A stretch of 47,213 nt of DNA from Acidobacteriota bacterium (GTDB lineage: Bacteria; Acidobacteriota; G020349885), in assembly GCA_020349885.1 (NCBI GenBank), contig CP070701.1:413397-460609 (forward strand). The letters run 5' to 3'. Positions 41,966 through 47,213 of the stretch are shown piece after piece. Both the position numbers and the translations under genes were made by a program. Numbering within the stretch: position 1 is the first letter of the stretch; each line of letters starts with the position of its first letter. The notes beneath the pieces are model-generated. The model made no database searches, had not been told where the DNA came from, and was given only the letters and a program-made list of their open reading frames with translations.

Positions 41966-42154
41966 TGTTTTTCCTTATAATGCGTCTGCAAAAGGACGGC
42001 CGGACTGCGTTTAATGGAGCAGGATATCTGAGTCTCTCTGCAGGGTGGCGGCATGCTTTGACAACGGGATGCCGCCAGAGGAGACTGTTTTCGGGTGAAG
42101 GGCGCACAACTTGCGCAAGGGGCTCATTTTTACAACGTCAATGAGGGGAAAATC

Positions 42155-45100
42155 ATGAAAAATTCAATGCCACGATACACACGATACAAATGGTCGACTC
42201 TTGTTTTCGGGAGCGCGCTGCTTTGGTGTCTTTCGGGCAGCGCGTTCGCGCAGGTCATCTTCTTCGACGACATGGAGGGCGGTCCCGGCGGCTGGACGAA
42301 CTATCTCATAACCGGCGATCCGGGACCTCCCGTAACAAACGACTGGCAGCAGTCAGTGGCGCGCTCCTACAGCGGTGCCACGAGCTGGTGGAGCGGAGAC
42401 TGGGCACCATCGTGGGGCGATACAGCACTTGAATCACCTGATATTGACTTGACGTTGGTTGCCGGCCCCCCGCAGCTTGAGTTCTGGCATTGGTACGAGT
42501 TTGATGAGTGTGCCCCCCCCCCTGACCCAACGTTTGAGCCCGACGGCGGTATCGTGGAAGTGTTCGTCATGCCGTTGGGGCCGTGGACCCAGATTTTCCC
42601 CAGCGGTGGATATCCCTACAACATTAATGATGATCCTTGTGGGGTAGGTTCGCAGAATCCCCTGCTTGGACTCGACGCCTATTCGCACACCACTGGAGGC
42701 GTTTGGGTGCAGGAGACCTACGACCTGAGCGCCTTTGCGGGAAGCGTCATTCGCATCCGCTTCCACGTGGGCTGGGACTGCGGCAACTGCGCGCCAGTAG
42801 GAGACGAGGGTTGGCACATTGACGACGTTCTGGTCCACGTTCCCACTTTGGAATACGACAGCCACAATGTCCTTTTCGACTGCGGGAACTTCGATGGCAT
42901 CGTGGACCCGGGAGAGACGATTGACCTGGAAGTTACCCTGGAAAACGTCGGCACCTTTGATACCTGCAATATAAACGGAACGCTCTCGACGGGCACGCCG
43001 GGGATAACGATTCCCGTGAACACGGCGTTCTTCGGAAACATCGCCATGGGCGGATTCGGAACGTCGTTTCCCCCGCCGTTCCAGTTCGTCGTGGCCCCGG
43101 GCGTGCCCTGCGGCACGACGATTGACTTCACGCTCGACCTTGCGTTCGACGATTGCTTCGCCACTCCCTATACTGCCACCTCTACGTTCCAGGTGCAGGT
43201 CGGCTTTGTTGCGCCGTCCGTGCCGCTCCTTTCAACGGACTTTAACCCCCTCCCCCTCGGATGGACGGTGATAAACGGTGGGAGCTCTATCGACACTTGG
43301 GACAACTTCGACCCATGCGGGCGGGGGTCGTTCCCTCCCCTTTACATGATTTGCGATAACAACTGCCCGTTGGGCGGGTATACTATGGATGAGGAGCTTA
43401 TCACGCCGCTCATTAACGCAGTTGGCATGGGGACGGTCACGCTCCGCTTCGACCACGACTTGTTATATGCCTTTATGGGAGAGATGGTGGAGGTGGACGT
43501 CATGAGCGCGAAGACGGGATGGGTGTGGGTGAACGTGGCGCAGTATACGAACAGCACCGGCGGTCCTGTGTCCGAATTTATAGACATCACGGCGCAGGCG
43601 GCCGGAGCGCCGGATGTCCAGATCCGCTGGCACTACTACAACGCGCTCAATGCCGGATACTGGGGCGTGGACAACGTTTTCGTGGCAGGAACGCCTCCCG
43701 CGGTATGCAATCCCATCGCGTGCGGGCCCCACCTGCTATACGAGGGCCACCAAATACTCATGGATTGCGGGAACTTCAACGGCGTCGTGGATCCGGGTGA
43801 GACGATTGACCTCGATGTCACGGTGTTTAACTTCGGCAACAACGACGCTTTCAATGTAAACGGGACGCTTTCGACGACGACGCCCGGCGTAACAATCCCG
43901 ATGAACGTGGCATGGGTTCCGAACATTCCGACAGGCAGCTCTGCCTCGCTCGCACCGTTCCAGTTCGTCGTGGACCCGAGCGTGCCCTGCGGAACGTTCA
44001 TCAATTTTACGCTTGACCTGACCTACGACGACGGGTTCACGCCGTACTCCAATTCCGTATCGTTTGTGGTGCAGGTGGGGAACGGGGCGCTGGTTTTTGC
44101 CGACGACATGGAGGGCGGCGACAACGGCTGGACGCACTATCTAATAAGCAGCGACCCGTTTGCCATCCCGCCCGTAACCGACGGGTGGGAGCAGAGCACC
44201 ATGCGCTCCTCGAGCAACTCGACGAGCTGGTGGAGCGGCACACTGGACGGCCCGTGGCACACCTCCGCGCTCGAGACGCCGGATATTGATTTAACGAAAG
44301 TGGGAGGCGCGGTCCTCTCGTTCAACCACTGGTACGATTTCGGAGAATGCGGTGTGATAGGAGACGAGTACGACGGTGCACTCGTAGAGGTGAGCGTCGG
44401 GGGAGGCCCGTGGAACCAGATTTTCCCGTTGGGAGGTTATCCGTATACCCTGGTCTTCTGCGGCAACCCGCTGGATGGCTTTGCTGCTTACGCGCACGAC
44501 AGCGCCTGCGTGTTCGAACCCCAAGCGTTCGACCTGACCCCGTTTGCAGGAAACGTCATCCGCATCCGCTTTCGTGTGGGAGCGAGCGCCTGGTGCAATT
44601 GTAATTACCCCTTAGAGGGGTGGTACCTCGACGACGTGGTGATAGGTACCGTTCCCCCGGCGTGCGCGCCCGCGGCGTGTGGGCCGTACCTCCAGTACGA
44701 CTCGGAAGTGATTACCGACTGCGGGAACTCCGACGGCGTCGTTGATCCAGGGGAAACCGTGACCGTCAGCCTGACGGTTCTGAACACAGGGAGCGAGGGA
44801 GCCTTCAATGTGAGCGGCACGCTCTCGACCTTGACGCCGGGAGTGACGATAACCGTTCCGACCGCTTCCTTCCCGGACATCCCCGTGGGTTTGACGGGCA
44901 CGTCGCTTACGCCGTTCGAGTTCATCGTGGACGGGGCCGTCGTGTGCGGCACGGTGATTGATTTCACGCTTGACCTTACCTACACGGACGTTGCGCTCAA
45001 TCCCTTCTCGAACACCATTACAGGTCCCGCACAGGTGGGCTCGGACGGGCCGTCCGTGCCGATTTTCTCGGAGAACTTTAACCTTGGTCTTCCGGGAACG

Positions 45101-47213
45101 TGGACCGTCGTGGACAACGGGGACAATTCATTCTGCGCTCCCAACTGCACGTGGGTGAATAACGATCCTTGCGGTCGTGGGTTCTTCTTCGACCCCTATA
45201 TGATTGCCGATGAGAGCTGTTTCTGGGTCGACATGGACGAGGAGCTTATCACGCCGCTCATTGACGCCTCCGGCGTGACCAAGGTCGGCATTATCTTCGA
45301 GCACAACTTCGATAACGGCGCGAACTGCGCCATCGCAAACGTGGACGTCCGGAGCGCCAATACGGGCGGCGCGTGGGTCAACGTGGCGACGTTCACGGCG
45401 AACGTCATCGGCCTCGAAATAATTGACATCACGACGCAGGCGGCCGGCGCGGCGGACGTGCAAGTTCGCTGGCATTACGTTTCCCAGCCGAGCCCCGGCT
45501 GGTGGGCCATTGACAACGTCTCCGTGCAAACCCCCACGCCCGTCTGCAATCCCGGATGTTGTCCACTGGATCCGGCGGTGATATCCAGTATTGCGCCCGA
45601 CCCGGTATGCCAGGGCACTTTCCAGGTGTTCACCGCCGCGGCGGCGACCGGCGGCGTGGCACCGTATACCTATTCGTGGGACTTCACGGACGATAGCACC
45701 TTCGACGCAGTTGGCCAGATTGTGGGCTACACCTACCCGGCGGACGGCAGCTACACGGTGCGGCTGCGCGTTACCGACTCCTGCAGCTTAGGGTCGCAGG
45801 TGCAGGAGACTACGGCCAGCGTGACGGTGTACGAAAACCCGACGGCGGCACCGGTGGTGGCCCCGGAGCCGGTGTGCCTGGGGACTGTGCAGACGTTCAC
45901 GGCGAACGCGGCGCTGGGACTGGCGCCGTACACGTATTTGTGGAATTTCGGAAACGGGGACACGTCGACGGCTGCGAACCCCGTGTACATGTATCCGGCG
46001 GACGGAAGCTACGTGGTGACGGTGACGGTGACGGATTCGCTTGGGTGTTCGTCCGGGCTGGTTGGGGTAGCTACCAATCCTGTGGAGGTGTACGGGCCGG
46101 AGGCTGCGCCGGTGGTGGACGCGGAGCCTGTGTGCCTTGGGACGGCGCAGACGTTCGTGGCTAACGCGTCGAGAGGCAGTCCCTTTGGGTTCATTCCCAT
46201 TTTTACGGACGACATGGAGAGCGGCATAAACGGTTGGACAGTTTCGGGGTTGTGGGCTCAAATCAGTGACCCGGCGACCTGCTCGCCGGTTTCTAACTCC
46301 GCCACGACAAGCTGGTATTTCGGTCAGGATACGGGCTTGGCCTGTGACTATAACGTAGCTTCAAATTGTACGTCTCCCAGTACCGGGTTTCTTGCGGTCT
46401 GCGGGGAGCTGGTGTCACCCTCCATCGGGCCTTTGCCGGCGGGAGCCGTTTTGAATTTCTGGTATCGGCGCCAAACCGAGGATTTTTGTGCGACATACGA
46501 TCGCACATATGTAGAGATTTCTGATGACGGAGGCTTTTCGTGGGCCGTATTGTGGGAGCTGTGCGACGAGAGCAACTCGTGGGTGAACTCGGGAAACATT
46601 GACCTCAGCGCGTACGCCGGGGCGACGGTGAACATCCGGTTTCGCGTTGACACGGGAGATTTAGCTTTAAATGCCTTCTTGGGCTGGATGGTGGACGACG
46701 TGCTCGTGGGCGAGCCGATCTACAATTACCTGTGGAGTTTCGGGAACGGGGACACGTCGACGGCTGAGAACCCCGTGTACACGTATCCTGCGGACGGGAG
46801 CTACACGGTAACGGTGACGGTGACGGATTCGTTCGGGTGTTCGTTCGGGCCGGTTGGGGTAGCTACCAATCCTGTGGAAGTGTACGGGCCGGAGGCTGCG
46901 CCGACGGTGGACGTGGAGCCTGTGTGCATCGGTACTGTGCAGACGTTCACGGCGAACGCGTCGTTGGGGCTGGTGCCGTACACGTATATGTGGAGTTTCG
47001 GGAACGGAGACACGTCGACGGCGGCGAGCCCCGTGTACACGTATCCTGCGGACGGTAGCTACACGGTGACGTTGACGGTGACGGACTCGTTCGGGTGTTC
47101 GTCCGGACCTATTGGTGTAGCTACCAATCCTGTGGAGGTGTACGGGCCGACGGCTGCGCCGGTGGTGGACGCGGAGCCTGTGTGCATAGGCACTGTGCAG
47201 CAGTTCACGGCGA
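42155..47213 (+). CDS. Giant secreted PKD-repeat protein, 5' part (open at window end)
   Basis: The frame is open from ATG 42155 (GAGGGG upstream) to the right edge: 1,686 codons and no stop. A signal peptide (about 1-32, ending SAFA) precedes a modular ectodomain. Type A jelly-roll/MAM-like domains (DDMEGG..GW, LESPDIDL, WHIDDVLV) lie at about 35-230 and 648-833. Type B domains (DCGN-DG-VDPGET, GTLST-TPG, VPCGT-I-FTLDL) lie at about 240-350, 535-640 and 853-960. Type C domains (GWTV, DEELITPLI, WGVDNV) lie at about 355-512 and 968-1125. PKD repeats (NFGNGDTSTA, YPADGSYTVTVTVTD) run from about 1148 on. A further jelly-roll domain is embedded in PKD3 (about 1340-1525). It is likely a surface adhesin or extracellular-matrix protein; any enzyme domain or anchor would be beyond the window. 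Confidence 0.88.
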   Translation, partial: MKNSMPRYTRYKWSTLVFGSALLWCLSGSAFAQVIFFDDMEGGPGGWTNYLITGDPGPPVTNDWQQSVARSYSGATSWWSGDWAPSWGDTALESPDIDLTLVAGPPQLEFWHWYEFDECAPPPDPTFEPDGGIVEVFVMPLGPWTQIFPSGGYPYNINDDPCGVGSQNPLLGLDAYSHTTGGVWVQETYDLSAFAGSVIRIRFHVGWDCGNCAPVGDEGWHIDDVLVHVPTLEYDSHNVLFDCGNFDGIVDPGETIDLEVTLENVGTFDTCNINGTLSTGTPGITIPVNTAFFGNIAMGGFGTSFPPPFQFVVAPGVPCGTTIDFTLDLAFDDCFATPYTATSTFQVQVGFVAPSVPLLSTDFNPLPLGWTVINGGSSIDTWDNFDPCGRGSFPPLYMICDNNCPLGGYTMDEELITPLINAVGMGTVTLRFDHDLLYAFMGEMVEVDVMSAKTGWVWVNVAQYTNSTGGPVSEFIDITAQAAGAPDVQIRWHYYNALNAGYWGVDNVFVAGTPPAVCNPIACGPHLLYEGHQILMDCGNFNGVVDPGETIDLDVTVFNFGNNDAFNVNGTLSTTTPGVTIPMNVAWVPNIPTGSSASLAPFQFVVDPSVPCGTFINFTLDLTYDDGFTPYSNSVSFVVQVGNGALVFADDMEGGDNGWTHYLISSDPFAIPPVTDGWEQSTMRSSSNSTSWWSGTLDGPWHTSALETPDIDLTKVGGAVLSFNHWYDFGECGVIGDEYDGALVEVSVGGGPWNQIFPLGGYPYTLVFCGNPLDGFAAYAHDSACVFEPQAFDLTPFAGNVIRIRFRVGASAWCNCNYPLEGWYLDDVVIGTVPPACAPAACGPYLQYDSEVITDCGNSDGVVDPGETVTVSLTVLNTGSEGAFNVSGTLSTLTPGVTITVPTASFPDIPVGLTGTSLTPFEFIVDGAVVCGTVIDFTLDLTYTDVALNPFSNTITGPAQVGSDGPSVPIFSENFNLGLPGTWTVVDNGDNSFCAPNCTWVNNDPCGRGFFFDPYMIADESCFWVDMDEELITPLIDASGVTKVGIIFEHNFDNGANCAIANVDVRSANTGGAWVNVATFTANVIGLEIIDITTQAAGAADVQVRWHYVSQPSPGWWAIDNVSVQTPTPVCNPGCCPLDPAVISSIAPDPVCQGTFQVFTAAAATGGVAPYTYSWDFTDDSTFDAVGQIVGYTYPADGSYTVRLRVTDSCSLGSQVQETTASVTVYENPTAAPVVAPEPVCLGTVQTFTANAALGLAPYTYLWNFGNGDTSTAANPVYMYPADGSYVVTVTVTDSLGCSSGLVGVATNPVEVYGPEAAPVVDAEPVCLGTAQTFVANASRGSPFGFIPIFTDDMESGINGWTVSGLWAQISDPATCSPVSNSATTSWYFGQDTGLACDYNVASNCTSPSTGFLAVCGELVSPSIGPLPAGAVLNFWYRRQTEDFCATYDRTYVEISDDGGFSWAVLWELCDESNSWVNSGNIDLSAYAGATVNIRFRVDTGDLALNAFLGWMVDDVLVGEPIYNYLWSFGNGDTSTAENPVYTYPADGSYTVTVTVTDSFGCSFGPVGVATNPVEVYGPEAAPTVDVEPVCIGTVQTFTANASLGLVPYTYMWSFGNGDTSTAASPVYTYPADGSYTVTLTVTDSFGCSSGPIGVATNPVEVYGPTAAPVVDAEPVCIGTVQQFTA
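45872..47213 (+). repeat. 258-bp PKD-encoding tandem repeats
   Basis: GTGTGC at the repeat start recurs at 45872, 46130, 46922 and 47180: spacings of 258, 792 and 258 bases. The 792-base interval is one 258-base unit plus 534 bases (178 codons) of inserted coding sequence. Nucleotide identity between units is high, for example GTAGCTACCAATCCTGTGGA near 46068, 46859 and 47117, indicating recent duplication or gene conversion. Confidence 0.88.

Follow-up and report, generated by a model that had tools for sequence, protein, structure and literature searches.

One unit in a PKD array of a giant secreted-type protein is interrupted by a complete extra domain: within PKD unit 3, the N-terminal part of the host, the extra domain and the C-terminal part of the host follow each other in this order in one reading frame. 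The gene lies at the right-hand end of the window, meaning the whole stretch of 47,213 nucleotides that was analysed. With a probability of roughly 0.7, we consider its product to be a secreted, surface or matrix protein in which a jelly roll of the MAM type sits in a loop of PKD unit 3, with the two PKD halves folding together and the inserted domain standing out sideways. PKD repeats in bacterial surface and secreted proteins are usually regarded as passive spacers. If their loops can take up whole domains, sequence-based annotation will split or overlook the host, and the fibre will carry side branches. Units 2 and 4, near-identical and uninterrupted, offer a built-in control for the tolerance of PKD to insertion.

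According to the list of open reading frames, a single open frame runs from a GTG at 42095 to beyond the end of the window; the ATG at 42155 is the likely start codon (Table 1). Across the protein, Pfam detects four PKD_4 and three InhA-like_MAM matches. Two copies of a super-repeat of about 1836-1848 bp make up the part from 42251 to 45532, each consisting of a type A domain, a spacer, a type B domain and a second spacer. The second type A domain, which the first-pass annotation had placed at 44092-44655, is indeed present, with limits that had to be corrected.

Table 1. Layout of the giant protein gene and its PKD array (positions in the window)
Feature	Position	Strand	Evidence
Giant secreted-type protein gene, truncated at contig end	42155..47213	+	ORF lists; 100-N gap follows
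Likely signal peptide, MKNSMPRYTRYKWSTLVFGSALLWCLSGSAFA	42155..42250	+	Sequence reading by eye
Type A MAM-like domain 1	42251..42844	+	Pfam, domain comparison
Type B choice-of-anchor-J-like domain 1	43220..43690	+	Domain comparison; clade apart from type A and insert
Type A MAM-like domain 2	44087..44653	+	Pfam, domain comparison
Type B domain 2	45056..45532	+	Domain comparison
PKD unit 1	45557..45838	+	Pfam
PKD unit 2, uninterrupted, 258 bp	45839..46096	+	Direct repeats, unit alignment
PKD unit 3 (host), N-terminal part, ends TFVANAS	46097..46171	+	Unit alignment, HMM
534-bp in-frame insertion, boundary +/- several bp; domain proper about 46190-46717	46172..46705	+	
PKD unit 3 (host), C-terminal part, begins about IYNYLWSFGNGDTSTA	46706..46888	+	Pfam, alignment, HMM
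PKD unit 4, uninterrupted, 258 bp	46889..47146	+	Direct repeats, unit alignment
PKD unit 5, cut at contig end, 67 bp left	47147..47213	+	Unit alignment; gap

The direct-repeat search found PKD copies at spacings of 792 and 258 bp in one repeat family (D1) and of 258, 792 and 258 bp in another (D4), and units 2 to 5 have lengths of 258, 792, 258 and 67 bp, the last being cut. Unit 3 (46097-46888) amounts to 258 bp plus exactly 534 bp, in frame. This search and the alignment of the units bear out the earlier observation of a 258-bp recurrence in which one unit is 534 bp longer. The best excision removes 534 bp at about 46172-46705 and leaves a 258-bp unit that aligns without any indel, matching unit 4 at 220 and unit 2 at 218 of the 258 positions (84-85% DNA identity); the N-terminal half is 80-84% and the C-terminal half about 86% identical to both neighbours. 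Because cuts placed anywhere from 73 to 86 bp into the unit score near-equally, the boundary of the insertion is uncertain by several bp.

A home-made PKD HMM, trained on PKD units with the hosts left out, gives 31 bits to the N-terminal part, 86 to the C-terminal part and 124.7 to the excised host, which is recognized as a whole domain (HMM positions 1-84); in the protein, Pfam also matches PKD_4. On the genome, the C-terminal part of the host matches positions 34-75 of PKD_4 only. Since excision restores a 258-bp unit and raises the HMM score, the assembled sequence does contain a nest, whose host has kept its full length. The proposal that the frame is interrupted in a PKD loop stands, but not the idea that the insertion replaces a few residues of that loop: there is no net loss from the host, only a few diverged loop residues.

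It could be imagined that a tandem PKD-MAM-PKD arrangement has lost the adjoining halves of its two PKD domains, the stubs no longer forming one domain. Tandem arrays of a MAM domain followed by a whole PKD do occur, both in the genome itself (L021) and in a relative (L091). Such a degenerate concatenation is nevertheless rather improbable, as the stubs sum to exactly one 258-bp unit with neither gap nor overlap, and the excised host scores higher than its parts combined. Excision arithmetic and HMM scores hence favour a nested domain over a concatenation, as had been claimed from a first reading.

In the nested arrangement, the gene product would be a string of beta-sandwich domains, secreted or located at the surface or in a matrix, and the insert would occupy the loop of PKD unit 3 ahead of the strand YLWSFGNG. 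The two halves of the host most likely cofold into one PKD domain, and the insert may project sideways off the fibre, much as split Ig-like domains carry ligand-binding domains. By this analogy, the product is most likely an adhesin-type fibre, in which the split PKD probably acts as a bracket for a laterally placed extra domain. Judged from its fold only, the insert might bind a ligand, be it a sugar, a protein or a polymer. A structure model of the whole nest is of low confidence (pLDDT 59, pTM 0.42), with pLDDT values of 61-74 in the N-terminal PKD half, up to 91 in the C-terminal half and below 50 in part of the insert.

A short-read assembly that wrongly joined PKD repeats around a MAM domain would give rise to the same order. 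The scaffold consists of pieces linked through 100-N gaps, the window being one of them, with gaps at both its ends; the right-hand gap lies inside PKD unit 5, where the C-terminus of the protein is lost, and the sequence past it appears unrelated. Six more 100-N gaps, at five loci, break other big repeat genes of this genome. An artefact of this kind is, however, very improbable. Units 2-5, compared in pairs, have exact matches of 34 bp at most, the 151-mers spanning each junction occur once each in the genome, and other genomic copies match up to the junction only (left, 84% over about 60 bp; right, 92-94% over 51 bp). Unique junctions and short exact repeats together make a chimera at both junctions unlikely, the reading frame is intact and excision gives exactly 258 bp. 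From the sequence, misassembly of the nest thus appears unlikely. Big repeat-rich genes for secreted proteins (L020, L021, L022, L023, L024 and L069) are repeatedly broken by 100-N gaps, mostly within repeats.

The jelly-roll-type fold that had been suggested for the inserted domain is supported by an AlphaFold2 model and by Foldseek. Modelled alone, from an alignment of only 4 sequences, the insert reaches a pLDDT of 73.7 and a pTM of 0.78; strands lie close to either end, at residues 5-11 and 167-180 of 184. Against the PDB, this model matches the neuropilin MAM domain (TM 0.61/0.64), Kgp K1 (0.58/0.63) and meprin (0.62-0.65 by query). Reelin, the cleaved-adhesin domains of gingipain K1/K3 and carbohydrate-binding modules are matched as well, mostly at TM 0.5-0.65; a jelly roll of the MAM/cleaved-adhesin kind is what this four-sequence model predicts. 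Sequence profiles point the same way: InhA-like_MAM is found in three stretches of the protein, and the best stretch for choice_anch_J (NCBIfam/Pfam) covers protein residues 1433-1538, within the insert. Searched by itself on the genome, the insert scores 17.8 bits, which is under the Pfam cut-off, and a comparison of its sequence with the PDB yielded chance matches only. On the basis of the predicted fold, the roughly 175 residues of the insert make up an autonomous jelly roll of the MAM/cleaved-adhesin type.

Identity to the insert is 53% for a domain in another gene of the same genome (C1:2367917-2368474), 47% for a domain from a Phycisphaerae MAG, a planctomycete and thus of another phylum (L057), and 42% for a domain at C1:2228794-2229261. 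In a tree, the insert groups with these three, with a support of 88/93 that is not strong; the type B domains form a clade separate from type A and the insert. One alignment (A4) was left out because of a poorly matching row, with 16% identity and probably on the wrong strand. That a type A domain of the same protein was copied into the PKD unit is scarcely credible: the resemblance noticed in the first-pass annotation does exist, since insert and type A have the motifs DDMExG..GW and GW..DDV in common and domains A1 and A2 are 34-36% identical to the insert, but the insert is nearer to domains from other genes and another phylum, and a clade uniting it with A1 and A2 fails the AU test (p-AU 0.0068). 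The GC3 of the insert (67%) differs from that of the neighbouring PKD units (78-80%), which is weak evidence because A1 has 69% as well. A transposition scar was also considered and rejected: direct matches shared by the two junctions reach no more than 6 bp, the same as in shuffles.

The same nest was found in none of 60 relatives, 396 genomes of the phylum, GTDB contigs, viral contigs and plasmids, so conservation gives it no support. Across the 396 phylum genomes, both junctions are crossed by the window sequence only. Relatives of the insert itself are present in 45 of these genomes, its own included. They align at most over query residues about 5-195 of 201, the best ones over 16-187, and thus match the insert and nothing beyond. 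In the best nine new loci, the insert-like domain stands between whole domains, and likewise in 13 others that were readable. Three candidates were discarded: the apparent match upstream of the insert in L057 is not PKD, and L075 and L077 are not nested.

A second, independent split PKD exists in the same genome. In a subtilase gene (L071, C1:1125325-1123498, minus strand), a PKD domain breaks off after FYEWDFGE and resumes at NGIEDPSYLYDDPGTYIVTLTV; the intervening 533 residues hold three lamin tail domains (LTD), all recognized by Pfam. The PKD HMM gives 13.4 and 18.3 bits to the two parts and 45 to the excised host; of PKD_4, Pfam matches positions 50-85 only. The loop that carries the insertion differs from the one used in PKD unit 3. 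As a possible but doubtful generalization, PKD could serve as a reusable bracket in this lineage, taking up unrelated domains in different loops and in separate genes and giving surface fibres with side branches.

Some other arrangements came to light. In another genome of the same phylum (L055, G033:C28), an S8 subtilase contains a MAM/reelin-like domain, with DLGAPGVAILST before and GTSMATPHVTGAVAYL after it, and Pfam matches S8 in two stretches. A MAM-like domain near the N-terminus of a PilY1-like protein (L025, C1 about 2341000-2342300, minus strand) is flanked by IYLFLDTSKT and SRISTVKNVLGD and is perhaps inside a vWA domain; a Pfam search of the excised host found no vWA. Furthermore, the C-termini of L068, L069 and L071 have a common tail, approximately E(S/G)S..G.DSAAVER followed by a C-containing end, and a similar tail, EGSYGTDSSGTQRP, is seen in L122 from another genome of the same phylum. 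This common tail of giant secreted proteins is possibly a sorting signal.

The architecture is reminiscent of the RTX adhesins FrhA and MpIBP, in which split Ig-like domains are interrupted by sugar- or peptide-binding domains and are proposed to point the ligand-binding domain away from the fibre (PMC10865825). In both cases a beta-sandwich host is interrupted by a whole domain, as is found in PKD unit 3, and an outward holding is proposed. Here, in contrast, a single PKD unit out of a near-identical array serves as the host and a MAM-like domain as the insert; RTX features such as C-terminal repeats and type 1 secretion are not visible, the C-terminus being missing at the contig end. With MAM, InhA-like MAM and cleaved-adhesin domains (PF20773, NF038128, gingipain K1/K3), the insert has motifs and the predicted fold in common, but the relatives that were inspected are arranged end to end between whole domains, whereas the insert lies inside a PKD. 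The host without its insert is an ordinary PKD domain (Pfam PF18911 PKD_4, PF00801) and differs by the sequence interruption. No paper in the literature searched, the coverage of which was incomplete, describes a PKD that carries a nested domain of the MAM-like or LTD kind. More generally, about 20% of multidomain proteins show domain insertion, and inserted domains tend toward close termini (PMC13114784). The nest belongs to the same A1-B-A2 class of architecture, although PKD is absent from the main text of that paper. It is a fresh instance of a known building trick rather than a new kind of system.
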